A DNA stretch of 64,000 nt from a virus. The translations under genes and the position numbers were made by a program. How positions within the stretch are numbered: the stretch's first letter is position 1; each line of letters opens with the position of its first letter. The stretch spans positions 248,001 to 312,000 of IMG/VR virus record IMGVR_UViG_3300020178_000002; one strand, given 5' to 3'. The notes under the pieces are model-generated. The model was not told where the DNA came from. It did not search any database and worked only from the letters and a program-made list of their open reading frames with translations. This document shows, piece after piece, positions 51,407 to 58,769 of the stretch.

Positions 51407-52792
51407 ATGTCTCTACATTTATTTATACCCTCTATAAATGAAATCTTAGCTCTTTTAATAAAAAGTCATGCTTCTTCTGGAGGCACTGTTTTGTTATCAA
51501 GGGCAGGCAAGGTTTGGAATAACCCCTCTACTAAGTCTATACTTAATGCTTGGCATCCAAAAGACATCGCAGGGAAACTACTTCAGAATTCTTTTTTAGA
51601 GCTTTGTGATGGTGGTGATGGTGGCAAAATGTCTGTGTTCATCGCCTGCTCACTGATAAAAAGCTTCTATCGGTTAAGTGTCTCAGAAGATTATCAAGAG
51701 AAGAATGTTAAAGAATCCTTGTCTGGTATTCTAGGGCAAATAAAAGCTTTTCCCTCTAGTGAAGATATTTTAATAAAAGTGGGTCTTCAGAGTGGTCTGG
51801 ATATAGAGGATGTTAAAAGTGTAGCTCAATCTATCTCGCTATCTGGTGCTTCTTCTTCACACATCTCTTTAGAGAAATGGGAGGGTGTAGGCTGTGAGGT
51901 CATACAGACAGACTCTTTCCTTGCTAATTTGAAGATACATTCAGATAAAGAAGTCTATCTCAAGGGTGCTATGTTCGTCTTATTTCAGAAACCACTCTTT
52001 GAGGTAAAAGAGATAGTTCCAGTTATGGAATTCATGTCTTCTTTTGAAGGTAGGCCTTTAGTTGTAATAGCCCCGATGGTTGGTGGTGGAGCTCTCAAAA
52101 CGATAAATCTTAATAGGAACAAAGGAGTTTTGGAAGCTTATGCTTGTGATGCACCAAGAGTAACTTGGTCAGAAGGCTGGCTTGAAGATATGGCTTCCTT
52201 TACAGGTGCAACAGTCTATAATACTTCATTTGATTCAGAGTTTAAGCCTGTGTTTTTTGGTTCTGCTTTAGAGGTAGTTTTAAACTACAATGAAATGGTC
52301 GTCACTCCTTATGATGAACATGTTGAAAGAACATCAGAGAGAGCAGACTTTCTTTTAAAAGAAGCTGAACTTTCTCCTTTCCCTCATACTCAGGATACTT
52401 TGAGGAAAAGAGCCAATGCTCTGAATGGTACTTTAGTTAGATTAAAAGTTGGTGGTGTAACAGAGTCAGAATCTAGGTGGAGAAGGGTTCTTATTGAAAA
52501 AGCTCTTATCTCAATGTCTGATGTAAATCGCTCTGGCTATGTTAAAGGTTCTATTCCCTGTTTGTATAATATAGAAACAAACAATCCAATACTAGAGAGA
52601 GCATTAAAGTCACCTTTCAATGTTGTTTGTCACAATTTAGGTAAGGCTGTTAATGATAAAACAGTCTGGGAGTCTCCCTTGTTGTATGAGCTTTTTCCAG
52701 CTTCTCGACTTTCAAATTTGATAACAAAAGCAGTTTCAGTGGCTACCACTATTGGTTCAGTAAGTCACATTGTAGAAAAGGAAAAAAGATGA
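51407..52792 (+). CDS. Divergent GroEL/Hsp60-like chaperonin (461 aa)
   Basis: Hand comparison with GroEL: DGGDGGKMSV (residues 67-76) sits where GroEL has GDGTTTATV; RPLVVIAPMVGGGALKTINLN (216-236) and VLEAYACDAP (241-250) match the apical segments around 'EGEALATLVVN' and 'AVKAPGFG'; WLEDMASFTGATV (258-270) matches 'MLEDIAVLTGG'; LRKRANALNGTLVRLKVGG (332-350) and VTESESRWRRVLIEKAL (351-367) match the 'RLAKLAGGVAVIKVG...RVEDAL' block. The aspartate equivalent to GroEL Asp398 appears replaced by Lys, and the protein is ~90 aa shorter than GroEL, so ATP hydrolysis may be lost. Start uncertain; no strong ribosome-binding site. Phage-encoded chaperonins are known in giant phages. Confidence 0.7.
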   Translation: MSLHLFIPSINEILALLIKSHASSGGTVLLSRAGKVWNNPSTKSILNAWHPKDIAGKLLQNSFLELCDGGDGGKMSVFIACSLIKSFYRLSVSEDYQEKNVKESLSGILGQIKAFPSSEDILIKVGLQSGLDIEDVKSVAQSISLSGASSSHISLEKWEGVGCEVIQTDSFLANLKIHSDKEVYLKGAMFVLFQKPLFEVKEIVPVMEFMSSFEGRPLVVIAPMVGGGALKTINLNRNKGVLEAYACDAPRVTWSEGWLEDMASFTGATVYNTSFDSEFKPVFFGSALEVVLNYNEMVVTPYDEHVERTSERADFLLKEAELSPFPHTQDTLRKRANALNGTLVRLKVGGVTESESRWRRVLIEKALISMSDVNRSGYVKGSIPCLYNIETNNPILERALKSPFNVVCHNLGKAVNDKTVWESPLLYELFPASRLSNLITKAVSVATTIGSVSHIVEKEKR

Positions 52793-53100
52793 AGATTCTA
52801 AAAAGATATGAAATCCCTTTAGATGATGTAAACGAAATTATGATGAACATAGAGTCATACCAGAGAATGCTAAATTTTTATGGGGAGTGGGTGGAGAAGC
52901 ATGGGGAATATGATTATGTAGACGAGAGGGTTCGAGACCTATCTGGCATTCTCTGTGAGTATTTGATTGCAAGAGAATATGTAAAAGAGGGTGCGAGGAC
53001 ATTTGGTGATGATAAGACAGTTTATGCATCTGTTGAGTTGGAGTTTAAAAAGAAGTACCCAAATCTCGAATACCCTTTTTCAAAGGTTTCAGGCAAATGA
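52789..53100 (+). CDS. Hypothetical protein (103 aa)
   Basis: Overlaps the chaperonin stop by ATGA and the next gene by ATGA, so it is part of the same coupled operon leading into the methyltransferase cluster. Acidic, helical, no motif. Confidence 0.5.
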   Translation: MKILKRYEIPLDDVNEIMMNIESYQRMLNFYGEWVEKHGEYDYVDERVRDLSGILCEYLIAREYVKEGARTFGDDKTVYASVELEFKKKYPNLEYPFSKVSGK

Positions 53101-53744
53101 TTATTACAATATTAAGAAAGCCTTTAGAGGGAAGCGTAGCTGATAATGTACTTAAACATGGTTGTGGTGCTTTAAACATAGATGCGTCAAGAGTTTCCTC
53201 TCACGACAAAACAAAAAACCACAGTCGCAAGCCAGAGGCTTCTAAACCAAAAGGCATTTATGGAGACTCAAAAGAACAAGAGACACATCAGACAAAGGGT
53301 CAAGAGATTGGTAGGTTTCCTGCTAACTTTATTCTGACTCACCGAGAGGGCTGTGAGTTAAAAGGCACTAAGAAAATTAAAAGTTCTTCTGGAAGAGGTG
53401 CTGTGAAAAAAGAGTCCTCTGCTGAAAAGTTGGGTAATCAAGGATATTCTTACTCTAAAGAGTCAAGAAAAGAAGGTACTGTTATGATTTGTCATGTAGA
53501 TGAAGATGGGAAAGAGACAGTAGCAGATTGGGCTTGTGTAGAGGGTTGTCCTGTTAAAGAGATAGATCGACAAAGTGGTTCGATAAAGAGTGGTGGTCGC
53601 TCTGCCAAAAACTACGCAGACAGCGATTCTGATCGGCTTGTCTATGGAGGGTTCTCTGGAGTGGCGAAAGAAATACAGCCCTCAAGTGGTGGTGCTTCTA
53701 GGTTCTTTAAACAGTTTAAGAAAGAAGAATCAAATGAACCCTAA
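53097..53744 (+). CDS. Split DNA methyltransferase, middle (target-recognition-like) subunit 1
   Basis: A 215-aa protein equal to the central section of beta-class N6-adenine/N4-cytosine methyltransferases: it begins MIITILRKPLEGSVADNVL, then GRFPANFILTHREGCELKG, DWACVEGCPVKEIDRQSG, and ends GGASRFFKQFKK. In intact enzymes these blocks lie between the DPPY and FxGSGTT motifs, and the variable parts between them contain the target-recognition region. Conserved blocks are nearly identical in three copies in this window; the intervening segments differ. It lacks catalytic motifs of its own. Coupled by ATGA to the upstream gene. Confidence 0.8.
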   Translation: MIITILRKPLEGSVADNVLKHGCGALNIDASRVSSHDKTKNHSRKPEASKPKGIYGDSKEQETHQTKGQEIGRFPANFILTHREGCELKGTKKIKSSSGRGAVKKESSAEKLGNQGYSYSKESRKEGTVMICHVDEDGKETVADWACVEGCPVKEIDRQSGSIKSGGRSAKNYADSDSDRLVYGGFSGVAKEIQPSSGGASRFFKQFKKEESNEP

Positions 53745-54186
53745 GCATCTTTCTGTAAGAGTGAAGCAATGTGACCTCATAGCTTCAAACTCTCCCTGTC
53801 CAAGAAGAAAAGTAGGTGCTCTTATCATAGACCCAGATAACAATGTTGTTATTAGTGAGGGGTATAATGGTACTCCTAGAAGTTCTGATAAGCAGTATTG
53901 TGGTGGCTCTGTCTGTAGAAGGACAGAGGATAATATAAAGAGTGGTACTAGGAATGATGTTGGATGTCACCACGCTGAAATGAATGCAATACTAAATGCA
54001 ACTAGGGTAGGGCAGTCTACTCTAGGTAAATGGTTAATTGTAAACTGTGACCCTTGTCTCATGTGTGCAAAAGCAATTCACCACAGTGGGATAGTGAGAG
54101 TTTACTGTCCTAAAGAGTTCTCTGGGAATCATAAAGAAGGTCTAAAATATCTTCTTGAAAACAGTATTGAGGTAGAAGATTTATGA
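53734..54186 (+). CDS. dCMP deaminase (deoxycytidylate deaminase)
   Basis: A 150-aa zinc enzyme of the CDA superfamily, predicted to convert dCMP to dUMP and feed dTMP synthesis. The zinc site is seen as CHHAEMNA and CDPCLMCA; SPCPRRKVGALIID and GYNGTPR are typical of phage dCMP deaminases, and CGGSVC could be the second zinc site. The ATG at 53734 is inside the end of the preceding gene; the longer frame is not protein-like. Confidence 0.85.
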   Translation: MNPKHLSVRVKQCDLIASNSPCPRRKVGALIIDPDNNVVISEGYNGTPRSSDKQYCGGSVCRRTEDNIKSGTRNDVGCHHAEMNAILNATRVGQSTLGKWLIVNCDPCLMCAKAIHHSGIVRVYCPKEFSGNHKEGLKYLLENSIEVEDL

Positions 54187-54302
54187 GTAAAGTAGTTATT
54201 TGCAAAAGATGTGGCAAAGACTTAAAATATGGCTGGAAATGTTCTGCAAGACCTGATTTGTCTTGTGTTCCTTATTCTAAATACTTAGAGGGTAAGCCAT
54301 GA
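54183..54302 (+). CDS. Small zinc-ribbon protein (39 aa)
   Basis: Four cysteines (CKRC, then single Cys in WKCS and LSCVP) suggest a zinc-ribbon. Start overlaps the dCMP deaminase stop and its own stop overlaps the start of the phosphoesterase gene (both ATGA), which supports a real coupled gene. Confidence 0.6.
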   Translation: MSKVVICKRCGKDLKYGWKCSARPDLSCVPYSKYLEGKP

Positions 54303-54979
54303 GGGTAGTTTGTATTTCAGATACTCATAATCAGCATGATAAAATAGATCTTCCAGATGGGGATGTTTTAATCCATGCTGGTGATTGGACAGGTACAGGA
54401 ACTCAGAGACAAGTTATAAGCTTTATTCGCTGGTTTGCTAGTCAACCTCATAAGCATAAGATACTTATTGCAGGAAACCATGAAGTAACTATGGACACTG
54501 ATTTCTATAAGCAAGCATGGCCTTCTTTTCATAAGGAACAGCTTCCTTATCAAGATATTAAAGATTATGTCTTGAGAGAAGAAGATATTTTCTACTTAGA
54601 AAATAGTGAAGTTGTGATAGAGGGTGTTAAATTTTATGGGAGTCCTTATCAACCTGCTTTTGGTGGCTGGGCTTTTGGTGCTAATAGAGGATTTGAAACA
54701 AAGTCTACTTGGTCTAAGATACCAGAAGATACAGATGTTCTTATTACTCATGGACCACCTAAAGATATAGGAGATAGGTTAGAGATTGGTGACTGTGTTG
54801 GGTGTGAGGATCTTCTTTATAGGATAAGAGAAGTTAAACCCTCACTTCACATCTTTGGTCATATACATGAGGGGTATGGTGAATATAAAATTGGAGATAC
54901 TGTCTTTTTAAATGCTTCGATCTGTGATGAAAACTATAAGTTGACAAATAAACCTTTAGAATGGGAGTTGGATAAGTGA
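54299..54979 (+). CDS. Calcineurin-like metallophosphoesterase (226 aa)
   Basis: Motifs in order: ISDTHNQH, HAGDWTG, GNHEVTM, LITHGPP and GHIHEGYG, forming the two-metal site of the metallophosphoesterase superfamily. Relatives act on cyclic nucleotides, nucleic acid ends or phosphate esters. It is not an SbcD because it lacks the larger C-terminal region and is not next to an SbcC. Coupled by ATGA to neighbours. Confidence 0.8.
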   Translation: MRVVCISDTHNQHDKIDLPDGDVLIHAGDWTGTGTQRQVISFIRWFASQPHKHKILIAGNHEVTMDTDFYKQAWPSFHKEQLPYQDIKDYVLREEDIFYLENSEVVIEGVKFYGSPYQPAFGGWAFGANRGFETKSTWSKIPEDTDVLITHGPPKDIGDRLEIGDCVGCEDLLYRIREVKPSLHIFGHIHEGYGEYKIGDTVFLNASICDENYKLTNKPLEWELDK

Positions 54980-55593
54980 TTATTACAATATTAAGAAAGC
55001 CTTTAGAGGGGAGTGTGGCAGATAATGTTTTAAAACATGGTTGTGGTGCATTGAATATAGATGCTTCTAGGATTAGTACCTCTGACAACCTCAATGGCGG
55101 AGCTTATGCTGAGTCTGCGAGTGAGAGACATGACGGAAAAGAGAACTGGAGGTATGAACGAGGTAAAGCAGGAGAGTATGAGCAACCGAAAGGCAGGTGG
55201 CCTGCTAACTTTATCCTCATGCATAAAGAGGGTTGTGAGTTAAAAGGAACTAAGAAAGTAAAGTCGAATGGTCATTGGACTCAAAAAGCAAATATTGGGA
55301 AGTTCTATGAGGGGGGTTGGAATCATCAAGAAATAGATGAGGGGAACAAGATGTCTGATGAAGATGGGAAAGAGGCTGTAGCAGATTGGGCTTGTGTAGA
55401 GGGTTGTCCTGTTCAGAGTTTAGATGCCCAAACAGGCATCTTGCGTAGTGGCAAAGATGTAAATCCAACAACTTCAAAAGTTAGTGGCTTTTTTGGTCAA
55501 ACAGATAACTACTATTCGGCAAAGTCGAATTATGGGGATAGCGGAGGTGCTTCTAGGTTCTTCAAGCAATTCAAGAAAGGAAATGAAAAATGA
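54976..55593 (+). CDS. Split DNA methyltransferase, middle subunit 2 (GTG start)
   Basis: A 205-aa paralog of the middle subunit with the same ends (ILRKPLEGSVADNVLKHG ... GGASRFFKQFKK), the GRWPANFILMHKEGCELKG and DWACVEGCPVQSLDAQTG blocks, and three quite different intervening segments. Start is GTG, overlapping the previous TGA; the end overlaps the N-terminal subunit gene (ATGA). It is an intact frame. Confidence 0.8.
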   Translation: MIITILRKPLEGSVADNVLKHGCGALNIDASRISTSDNLNGGAYAESASERHDGKENWRYERGKAGEYEQPKGRWPANFILMHKEGCELKGTKKVKSNGHWTQKANIGKFYEGGWNHQEIDEGNKMSDEDGKEAVADWACVEGCPVQSLDAQTGILRSGKDVNPTTSKVSGFFGQTDNYYSAKSNYGDSGGASRFFKQFKKGNEK

Positions 55594-56132
55594 TAGAGAT
55601 TAAAATAGGTGATTGCACCGAAAGACTAAAAGATTTAGAGGACAACTCAGTTGATGCTGTTATATCAGACCCTCCTTATGGGCTTAAATTTATGTCTAAG
55701 GGCTGGGATGATATAGGTGATGGCAGCCAGCAAAGAGAATGGCACAGAAAGTGGCTTACAGAGGCATACAGAGTTCTTAAGCCTAATGGAGTTATTAAAG
55801 CTTTCTCTGGGTCGAGAACTTTCCACCATCTGATAGCAATGATGGAAGAGATAGGGTTTGAAGACTTAAAAGTGGAGTCTTGGAGTTATGGTTCAGGTTT
55901 TCCTAAGTCTCACAATGTGAGCAAAGCGATAGATAAGTTAGGTGGTCGTCAATATAAGGCAATACCTGCTTCTGGTGTAGGGTTTATGAACTCAGATAAA
56001 GAGAACTGGAATGCTTGTCACAACCAACTCATTCCTGTCTCAGAAGAAACAGAAGAAGCTAAAGTTTGGAATGGTTGGGGTACGGCTCTTAAACCTTCAT
56101 GGGAGCCTGTCTGTGTTGGAGTTAAGAAATGA
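55590..56132 (+). CDS. Split DNA methyltransferase, N-terminal catalytic subunit (DPPY)
   Basis: A 180-aa protein with DPPYGLKFMSKGW (motif IV, residues 27-39), the LKPNG..KAFSGSRTFHHL and EEIGFEDL segments and YGSGFPKSHNVSKAID, as in beta-class DNA methyltransferases. It stops at GWGTALKPSWEPV, exactly where intact enzymes continue into the target-recognition part. DPPY usually indicates N6-adenine methylation. It is flanked on both sides by middle subunits and needs the C-terminal gene for the SAM-binding motif. Confidence 0.85.
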   Translation: MIEIKIGDCTERLKDLEDNSVDAVISDPPYGLKFMSKGWDDIGDGSQQREWHRKWLTEAYRVLKPNGVIKAFSGSRTFHHLIAMMEEIGFEDLKVESWSYGSGFPKSHNVSKAIDKLGGRQYKAIPASGVGFMNSDKENWNACHNQLIPVSEETEEAKVWNGWGTALKPSWEPVCVGVKK

Positions 56133-56734
56133 TTATTACAATATTAAGAAAGCCCCTAGAAGGGAGCGTAGCAGATAATGTGCTGAAACATGGATGTGGT
56201 GCTTTGAACATAGATGCCACTAGGATTGGTTTAGAGACTATGGTTTCTAGGTCTATGGGTAGTCTAGGGGTTATGCACGATGATAATTGGGAATCTAAAC
56301 CTATTGAAGCTAAAGAAGCCACAGGCAGGTGGCCTGCTAACTTTATCCTCATGCATAAAGAGGGTTGTGAGTTAAAAGGCTCTAAAAAAATTAAAGAGGG
56401 CAAAGCTAATAAAGATAAGGGTGGCTCATTTAGAGAAGTGGGTCTTTATGAAGATGGGTTGAAGACTAGAGCTGTAGACCATTTTCAAGGAGAAGAAGAG
56501 ATAGAAGATTGGGCTTGTGTAAAGGATTGTCCTATTAGGAAACTAGACCTGCAAAGTGGTCAAGTCAAAGGTTGGTCGAGTCAAAACCATAATACTTTTA
56601 ATCCATATCAAGGAAACTCGTTCCACAACTCGTCAACCCAAAGACAAGGATATAAAGAGGGGTATAACGATGATGGAGGGGCTTCTCGGTTCTTCAAGCA
56701 ATTTAAGAAAGGTAATGAAAAATGGAAGATATGA
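56129..56734 (+). CDS. Split DNA methyltransferase, middle subunit 3
   Basis: A 201-aa third paralog (ILRKPLEGSVADNVLKHG ..., GRWPANFILMHKEGCELKG, DWACVKDCPIRKLDLQSG, GGASRFFKQFKK) with its own variable segments. It is directly between N- and C-terminal genes, as the middle segment of an intact enzyme would be. ATGA with the N gene; 13-bp overlap with the C gene. Confidence 0.82.
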   Translation: MIITILRKPLEGSVADNVLKHGCGALNIDATRIGLETMVSRSMGSLGVMHDDNWESKPIEAKEATGRWPANFILMHKEGCELKGSKKIKEGKANKDKGGSFREVGLYEDGLKTRAVDHFQGEEEIEDWACVKDCPIRKLDLQSGQVKGWSSQNHNTFNPYQGNSFHNSSTQRQGYKEGYNDDGGASRFFKQFKKGNEKWKI

Positions 56735-57495
56735 TTGAGTATTTTAAAGTAATGATAACCCCACCTGTAGAAGAGCCTATTATCTTAGTAGGTAAGCCCT
56801 CTGAGATTGATTATACCAGCTTCATGGCTTTAGAGGGGGCTTCCATCGTTCCCATATATAACCCATCTGTACATGGGATCATTTTACTTGGAGAACCCAC
56901 AGAGGAAGAATCGAGTTTAATCAATGAGATTCTACTTCCAGGTGCTCATGTTATTCTTATCCCAGAAGATATTGGATATAAGGGTGTTATCTCCCTTGAA
57001 GACAAGGGTGGTTTAGAAGTTAGAGATGCCATTTTTGTAGCAGACGAGAACTCAGAGTTCTGCTATACTTCTAAAGCAAGTAGAGGTGAGCGAGAAGCAG
57101 GTCTTTCTAACTTCGATGAGAAAGAGGGTCATGGTACATTTAGGGCAACTAGAGATCAAGCTATGCTAACAGGTTCTGGTAATGTTAGGGACAACAAGCG
57201 TAAGAATATCCATCCTACTGTTAAGCCAATAGAGATAATGGAATGGTGTGCTAGAGATATAGAACCTAGCTCTACTGTTGTAGACCCTTTTATGGGGTCT
57301 GGAACAACAGGTATCGCTATGTCTAAACTACACCATGACTTTGTAGGGATAGAGCTTAATCCTGAATATGCTAAAATATGTGAGGCGAGGATGAAGTATT
57401 GGAAACCTGTGGACACAAAGATTATTTCAGAGAACCCTGTCGAAGAAGAAGACCAACAGGTCTTCACAGGGCAAGTTTCTCTATTTGACTTTTAG
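56722..57495 (+). CDS. Split DNA methyltransferase, C-terminal SAM-binding subunit
   Basis: A 257-aa protein whose second half carries CYTSKASRGEREAGL, HPTVKPIEIMEW (164-175) and the AdoMet-binding DPFMGSGTTGIAM (188-200), followed by FVGIELNPEYAKI. The first ~110 residues are unexpected: they include PGAHVILI...LEDKGGLEVRDAIF, which resembles a degenerate copy of the 'PGAHLLAFGGTR...IEDAGFEIRD' segment found near the DPPY motif in intact enzymes. A second ATG at 56731 is an alternative start. It converges with the pentapeptide gene (4-bp overlap). Confidence 0.85.
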   Translation: MEDMIEYFKVMITPPVEEPIILVGKPSEIDYTSFMALEGASIVPIYNPSVHGIILLGEPTEEESSLINEILLPGAHVILIPEDIGYKGVISLEDKGGLEVRDAIFVADENSEFCYTSKASRGEREAGLSNFDEKEGHGTFRATRDQAMLTGSGNVRDNKRKNIHPTVKPIEIMEWCARDIEPSSTVVDPFMGSGTTGIAMSKLHHDFVGIELNPEYAKICEARMKYWKPVDTKIISENPVEEEDQQVFTGQVSLFDF

Positions 57496-58769
57496 TAGAG
57501 GTTACGCTCAAAACGTGCAGCTACTCTTTCTGCTAGCATTTCTTCTTGAGATGCTTTGCGAAGCAGGAGCTTCTTCACAGATCGACCAAGACTCATATCC
57601 ATCTTTGTGGCTCTGTCGGTCTTTATTCCTCTTAGGTTAACCTTTGTGAGGTCAACACCTGTAAGGTCAGCACCATGTAGAGTAGCACCTGTAAGGTCAG
57701 CACCAGAAAGGTCTACATTTCTAAGATCAGTTCCTGTCAGATCAGCATCTTTTAGAGTAGCACCTTTTAAAGATTTTGCCTTTGAAAGGTCAGCATACTC
57801 TAGGCTAGCACCAGAAAGGTCAGCACCAGAAAGATCAGATCTTTCAAAGTCAGCACCAGAAAGGTCAGCTCCTTTTAAAGATGTTCCTGAGAATACAACT
57901 TCTGTAAAGTCACAATTAGAGAGATTAGCTCTGTCAAGAACAGCAGCACTAAAGTCTGACCCTGTAAAGTCTACACCAATAGCTTTGCAACCAGAAAAAT
58001 CAGCACCATTGAACTTGGTGTTCTTTACATCAGAAGCATCAGCAAATTTCCCTCCCACATACTTAATGCCTGCAAGATTGCATCTTGTAAAGGTTGTTCC
58101 TTCTAGACCATCTTCGTCAGTAATGGTGATGCCTTTTAAGTGGGTTGAAATTAGAGTAGAGTCTTTAAAAGAAGCTATTTCATCTACTCCTGTAAATTTA
58201 ACTCCTGTTAAAATGTTGTCTTGGAACTCTACACCTAAGAGATTAGCACTTGTAAAGTCTGTGGCAGTTATACCATCTGCGTTTGTAAAATCAGCACCGA
58301 TTAAAGTAGCTTTTGTAAAATCTGTTCCAGTTAAGCAACTTAGTTGTAAGTTAGCACCTGTTAGGTTAGCACCTTTAAAGTCACTACCTTTTAGATTTGC
58401 ACCTTCAAAATCAGCTCTGAGTAGTTTAAACCCAGCAAAGTTTGATAGCTCAATCTCGGATTCTTGGAAATTTGTGTGGCTCAGATCATTTTTCGGAATA
58501 CCAAGGCTAGTAAAGTCTGTCTGGTTGAAGTTTATTTCAGAAAGATCTTTATTCTTCAGTACTCCAGCCACAGATTTAATGTCGTCAGGATAGCTGTTTA
58601 AGTATTCTTTGACTTTACCGCCTTCGAGAGCTTTTTGATAAGCTTCATCTTTTTCTCGGAATTCTTTTAGCTCTTTGCCTTGAAGAGCTGGTTCAGCAGC
58701 ATACATTCTCTCCATATATGCTTTTCTTTTCATTCTCATACGAGCTTCGTAATATGATCTTCTTCTCAT
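57492..58769 (-). CDS. Large pentapeptide-repeat protein (425 aa)
   Basis: The N-terminal ~90 residues are charged and helical. From ~95 to ~395 the sequence is a near-continuous run of pentapeptide repeats (ADFEGANLKGSDF, ADLTGTDLRNVDL, SGADLTGATL), predicting a long right-handed beta-helix. The C-terminus (LLLRKASQEEMLAERV) is helical. It could mimic DNA and bind a topoisomerase or be a structural spacer; no evidence here decides. Confidence 0.8.
   Translation of the reverse strand: MRRRSYYEARMRMKRKAYMERMYAAEPALQGKELKEFREKDEAYQKALEGGKVKEYLNSYPDDIKSVAGVLKNKDLSEINFNQTDFTSLGIPKNDLSHTNFQESEIELSNFAGFKLLRADFEGANLKGSDFKGANLTGANLQLSCLTGTDFTKATLIGADFTNADGITATDFTSANLLGVEFQDNILTGVKFTGVDEIASFKDSTLISTHLKGITITDEDGLEGTTFTRCNLAGIKYVGGKFADASDVKNTKFNGADFSGCKAIGVDFTGSDFSAAVLDRANLSNCDFTEVVFSGTSLKGADLSGADFERSDLSGADLSGASLEYADLSKAKSLKGATLKDADLTGTDLRNVDLSGADLTGATLHGADLTGVDLTKVNLRGIKTDRATKMDMSLGRSVKKLLLRKASQEEMLAERVAARFERNLY

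Follow-up and report, generated by a model that had tools for sequence, protein, structure and literature searches.

A putative split beta-class DNA methyltransferase with three modular middle subunit genes in a large phage genome

Organization of the Locus

The analyzed stretch of DNA (hereafter, the window) comprises 64,000 nt, positions 248,001–312,000 of the 312 kb virus record IMGVR_UViG_3300020178_000002, and contains the genes of a putative DNA methyltransferase distributed among several proteins. These genes are of three kinds: N, encoding the part with the catalytic motif IV; C, encoding the part with the S-adenosylmethionine (SAM)-binding motif I; and M, encoding a middle, target-recognition-like subunit, which is present as M1, M2 and M3. 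The features are as follows (window coordinates, strand, description; designations such as A7-B8-C16 are types of the variable modules considered below):

53097..53744, +, M1, middle (target-recognition-like) subunit gene, 215 aa, A7-B8-C16; intact open reading frame (ORF); PHROG 3008 'DNA methyltransferase', 1.4e-9
54976..55593, +, M2, middle subunit gene with a GTG start, 205 aa, A1-B9-C5; PHROG 3008, 3.1e-11
55590..56132, +, N, with DPPYG as motif IV and, behind SGFPKS, a variable loop, 180 aa; PF01555 positions 1-96, 1.8e-14
56129..56734, +, M3, middle subunit gene, 201 aa, A4-B1-C2; PHROG 3008, 5.1e-9
56722..57495, +, C, SAM-binding motif I DPFMGSGTTG and HPTVKP, 257 aa; PF01555 positions 154-219, 2.5e-15
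53734..54186, +, interleaved dCMP deaminase gene; PF00383, 1e-21
54299..54979, +, interleaved calcineurin-like phosphoesterase gene; PF00149, 5.1e-14

Inspection of the ORFs showed that all five methyltransferase genes are uninterrupted and lie where an earlier reading, made from the sequence alone, had placed them. This sequence-only reading described the junctions as four-base or small overlaps. Overlaps of four bases (A/GTGA) were found at four junctions, namely upstream gene/M1, phosphoesterase/M2, M2/N and N/M3, and the remaining two were corrected to 13 bases (M3/C) and 11 bases (M1/dCMP deaminase). A similarity search of the whole record revealed exactly three M copies, M1–M3. PF01555 was detected in N and C at the locus, and five further matches in the record belong to different methyltransferases.

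The Catalytic Parts N and C

The PF01555 profile, N6_N4_Mtase, is divided between two proteins, N covering its beginning and C its end. Motif IV, of the form (D/N/S)PP(Y/F/W), is present in N as DPPYG, and motif I, FxGxG, follows the recognition region as DPFMGSGTTG in C. In addition, N matches PHROG 67 (6.7e-34). Judging by these motifs, the methyltransferase is probably an N6-adenine enzyme of the DPPY beta class.

The C protein is more than the C-terminal half of an enzyme: it looks like a methyltransferase from which motif IV and the recognition region were lost. Using hmmsearch, its N-like part was found to match the N-halves of 27 of the 29 fused sequences (E-values of 1.8e-6–0.003, against 0.5 for the best of the shuffled controls). 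In the related locus L065, the PF01555 match of the C part begins at profile position 37. A profile comparison of C with the split N gave a probability of 2% and an E-value of 0.021.

Conserved Scaffold of the M Proteins

Identity to M1 is 58% for M2 and 49% for M3, and the other two M proteins show 52% and 49% identity to M3 (E-values 1.8e-51 and 1.7e-40), which is well beyond chance. The common start, common blocks and divergent intervening segments described previously were borne out. Residues 1–30 are identical in all three proteins, the blocks GR[FW]PANFIL..H.EGCELKG, DWACV..CP[VI] and GGASRFFKQFKK are common to them, and the three stretches between the blocks give no meaningful alignment. 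Pairwise comparison of the shared blocks gave synonymous divergence (dS) of 0.67–1.01 and a ratio of nonsynonymous to synonymous divergence (dN/dS) of 0.09–0.14. Thus, all three M genes are kept under purifying selection in these blocks, in agreement with the earlier suggestion that the copies are maintained.

Module B is framed by HxxxC and CxxxC, a putative metal site found in all 22 of the 22 B-bearing M sequences. When M by itself was searched against Pfam and PDB sequences, nothing informative was returned; a Pfam match of M to Bunya_G2 (E-value 0.2) was regarded as due to chance.

Variable Modules and Their Exchange between Phages

The variable stretches of 42 M sequences were typed by single-linkage clustering at 45% identity; 41 of the sequences were from split or M-C fused genes and one was from the fused enzyme of locus L018. 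The modules of the window are located as follows:

53196..53309, +, M1 module A; 92% DNA identity with M of L067 (a 376 kb phage contig), scaffold/head 71%
53382..53492, +, M1 module B, between H-x3-C and C-x3-C; module typing
53580..53687, +, M1 module C, unique to M1 so far; module typing
55075..55191, +, M2 module A; 98% DNA identity with M of L063, adjoining scaffold 77%
55264..55350, +, M2 module B; resembles fused L018 by eye (SDGHW.. / SNGHW..), under the clustering threshold
55438..55542, +, M2 module C, type C5, also in L066 and L068; module typing
56228..56323, +, M3 module A, assigned to A4; DNA 86% identical to that of an M of L064
56396..56470, +, M3 module B, type B1, found in seven phage M genes; module typing
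56561..56674, +, M3 module C, assigned to C2; DNA 94% identical to that of L064 and L065, against 65-75% in the flanks

In total, 14 types of module A, 9 of module B and 16 of module C were distinguished, and they occur in 37 combinations. The modules are optional, since certain M proteins hold A only, B only, or A and C. Four-gamete quartets were found for AxB, AxC and BxC. Strict co-inheritance cannot yield such quartets, and their presence for every module pair indicates that the modules reassort independently.

The boundaries of the exchanged segments can be followed at the DNA level. M2 and the M gene of L063 agree at 68 of 90 bases over the first 30 codons and at 119 of 120 across module A, after which they diverge. 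The shared module was closer in DNA than the scaffold in 35 of the 79 cross-phage pairs. The variable segments therefore pass between phages as DNA cassettes. Modules of the same type in different phages showed dN/dS of 0.03–0.13 in several pairs and types; this conservation means that the module sequence matters. A test for lower sharing of modules within than between phages gave no significant result (p 0.17).

Related Loci in Other Large Phages

Viral contigs were scanned with M, N and C, and the loci obtained were surveyed in six frames. The search for this split in related phages, proposed together with the sequence-only reading, revealed the split locus in more than 20 distinct phage populations, on contigs of up to 376 kb. 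Each split locus has a single C, one to four M and usually one to four N, and many phages have one M only. Many relatives also possess several N genes, which have a variable loop of their own. The arrangement from M2 to C is identical on a second contig (L014/L054), and the order M-N-M-N-N-M-N-C of L059 is present in two separate contigs. Other orders are N-M-M-N-M'-M'-C (L064), M'-M-N-M-C (L067), N-M'-N-N-M'-C (L077) and M-N-C (L066). Short A-only or B-only M genes accompany full M genes in the same cluster in L064, L067 and L017. The start/stop overlaps with the upstream gene are conserved.

Eight whole records were searched, namely six with an uninterrupted split locus, L089 (an intein in C) and L018 (fused). 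Each of the six split-locus records contains one full-length C, the few weak matches being other methyltransferases, and no M was found outside the locus in these six records.

In L018, L020 and many phages, mycobacteriophages among them, a single chain comprises N, M and C in this order, which confirms the N-M-C domain order. The position of N and C on opposite ends of PF01555 agrees with the beta-class order assumed earlier. M and C are fused in a single frame of 477 aa in L065 (8206-9639), which is direct evidence that M and C belong together. A single chain with two M units in tandem (N-M-M-C), like a multispecific methyltransferase, is encoded by L040 (5506-7224), and the fused relative L125 contains repeated GRWP..B..C units. 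A scan of bacterial genomes revealed one distant fused relative only.

Several additional features of these loci were observed. The split N of L067 (7501-9267) and the fused enzyme of L125 (8648-11362) contain intein-like insertions at one common site, with YG before it and SGFPKS/SGMPKS after it; a C-start and a ...VTGN|S end were recognized in them by eye, and no Pfam intein match was found there. In L089 (10001-11914; a 297 kb phage contig), an intein that has Hint and LAGLIDADG domains interrupts C inside HPTVKP. The M protein of L017 (2140-2652) is a chimera: B is its only module, and it ends in the tail of an N protein, a sign that M and N genes have recombined.

Position of M in the Beta-Class Fold

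The order of parts in beta-class enzymes is N-IV-TRD-I-C, where TRD is the target-recognition domain. A profile of the fused relatives was compared with solved beta-class enzymes (CcrM, M.RsrI, M1.HpyAVI and others), and two blocks were matched, one with DPPY and one with HPTxKP...DPFxGSG. The M region corresponds to the unmatched gap between them, that is, to the target-recognition position, as the sequence-only reading had supposed.

The target-strand bases are contacted by loops in CcrM (PMC13092597), and these loops appear to lie partly in the M gap. Judging by residue numbering, loop-45 of CcrM would be placed directly after the N-aligned block; N has its variable loop, following SGFPKS, at this presumed place. 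An AlphaFold model of L018 has the beta-class fold with a mostly confident catalytic core, and its best match was CcrM with DNA (Foldseek, 9e-10). The model of C was poor (predicted local distance difference test score, pLDDT, 61), its fold matches had low TM-scores, and it was not used.

Genes around the Locus

A GroEL-like protein gene (PHROG 5725; window 51407-52792) lies upstream of the locus, and a homolog is found upstream in many relatives. In many relatives, a dCMP deaminase gene lies inside the locus or next to it, its position varying (51 phmmer matches in the relatives' loci). Together, these two neighbors point to one ancestral locus that was subsequently rearranged. On the minus strand, a gene for a pentapeptide-repeat-like protein (window 57492-58769) is convergent with C, and its homologs flank C in the L066/L068 group. 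A methyltransferase of a different class (337 aa, with motif I before TSPPY; L195:903-1916, that is, 246902-247915 of the 312 kb record) is encoded just upstream of the window, and more methyltransferase genes are located at 75.2-76.7 kb and 95.8 kb of this record.

Interpretation of the Locus

Taken together, these data make it quite likely that the locus encodes a split beta-class methyltransferase in which one N/C pair is served by several M target-recognition subunits and specificity evolves through module swaps. The earlier interpretation of one pair with several M is thus supported. We infer that all three M dock on the same N and C and set M-specific targets, and they may act alternately. 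In this division of labor, N would provide the catalytic motif IV, C the SAM-binding motif I and M the target-recognition region, so that N and C, common to the three M, would assemble with them into N-M-C complexes. Each complex, or an enzyme with more than one M, would methylate its own target, and methylation of several targets may shield the phage DNA from several restriction enzymes. Methyltransferases are known to protect the DNA of lactococcal phages from restriction (PMC4190342). M itself would be a scaffold with conserved ends and up to three modules, A, B and C, recombining between phages as DNA cassettes; if the modules read DNA, specificity would evolve as they are swapped.

Several observations weigh against this assignment of roles. 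The module types depend on a single clustering threshold. Residues ~60–105 of C are homologous to the N-half of the fused enzymes, with DPPY absent from C; since C thus holds part of an N-half of its own, the mode of N/C pairing is hard to read. In the L018 model, the pLDDT of modules A and C is below 50, so the model is silent on contact of these modules with DNA. M heads from one phage resemble each other more closely than heads from different phages do (88.3% vs. 82.9% identity; permutation p 0.0015); this speaks for a shared partner, but it could also reflect shared ancestry, and the tail block shows no such excess of within-phage similarity (p 0.20). Finally, L073 retains a 35-codon stub of N, and the second N of L089 is frameshifted.

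Such damaged copies, together with the shortened M in several loci, could suggest that the split is a decaying methyltransferase and that the extra M and N are debris of tandem duplication. Decay of copies in relatives had been named as a point against the sequence-only reading, and it does occur for these two N genes; the frames in the window, however, are intact, and purifying selection acts on the shared blocks of M1–M3 and within module types. The same layout in separately assembled contigs and the conserved start/stop overlaps also argue against decay, which we regard as very improbable. A more serious alternative, although still rather unlikely, is that several M act jointly in one larger enzyme composed of N, several M and C, which would recognize a target that is longer or composite, or more than one target simultaneously. 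The tandem M units of L040, the repeated units of L125 and the short M next to full M in L064, L067 and L017 are consistent with it. However, one M suffices in the many phages that have a single M, and, as the M proteins have their ends in common, they would be competitors for one seam with N and C.

The diversity of M could also serve a role other than sequence recognition, such as evading a host inhibitor or associating with various partner proteins, as the modules are hydrophilic, no fold is predicted for them and no module has been linked to a known motif. This is improbable, because M occupies the target-recognition position of the beta-class order, the module types keep their sequence between phages and whole-module replacement alters specificity in Type I S subunits (PMC3874165). 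Active hypermutation, by a diversity-generating retroelement or another device, would be in line with strong variation limited to defined segments of otherwise conserved proteins. Nevertheless, no reverse transcriptase (PF00078) was found in the 312 kb record, the differences consist in wholesale replacement of modules and several modules are conserved between phages, so this source of M variation was rejected as hardly credible.

With one N/C pair serving several M subunits as the preferred interpretation, a further extension can be put forward tentatively, with slightly less than even confidence. The locus may embody a modular recognition code, in which a split N6-adenine core is combined with interchangeable specificity subunits, modules A, B and C each read part of the target, cassettes of ~100 bases are traded to track host restriction and the loops of multi-copy N add further combinations. 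If the interpretation is true, one virus would obtain several methylation specificities from one catalytic pair. As the modules recur in natural combinations, comparing the motifs obtained with a small number of M would allow bases to be attributed to modules, and such a natural recognition code could possibly be a source of programmable methyltransferases. It is also of interest how a methyltransferase fold is put together when its catalytic half and its cofactor half are separate chains.

Comparison with Known Systems

No split or combinatorial beta-class enzyme like that of this locus was described in the literature searched, which included no preprints and lacked many of the papers behind subscriptions. 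The beta-class enzymes of the PF01555 family (CcrM, M.RsrI, M.MboIIA, M1.HpyAVI and M.BceJIV) have the same order of motif IV, recognition region and motif I FxGxG. The known enzymes are single-chain, whereas in the window these parts are encoded by three separate kinds of genes, and recognition falls to a modular part present in several copies; the three occur in one polypeptide in the fused relatives.

The gene layout resembles that of Type I systems, where a separate specificity protein likewise serves a shared catalytic part and recombination takes place between conserved blocks. The specificity of Type I S subunits changes through domain shuffling or replacement (PMC3874165). However, M is unrelated in sequence to the S subunit (HsdS), with no significant Pfam match of M1–M3 to an S-subunit domain family and a match to PHROG 3008 'DNA methyltransferase' instead, and catalysis is here itself split between N and C. 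If the M subunits set different targets, exchange of specificity of the Type I kind would have arisen independently in large phages, in a split amino-methyltransferase.

The multispecific C5-methyltransferases of Bacillus phages (M.SPRI, M.phi3T and M.H2I type) also have several recognition units per catalytic core. They are single-chain cytosine-C5 enzymes with tandem units, in contrast to the separate proteins of an amino-methyltransferase in the window, and their closest single-chain counterpart among the relatives is L040. M.AquI and M.EcoHK31I, which are C5 enzymes of two polypeptides (PMC3404938), are likewise one methyltransferase made of separate chains. Each of their polypeptides exists in one version, without alternative recognition subunits, whereas the locus described here combines PF01555 amino-methyltransferase motifs with three kinds of genes.

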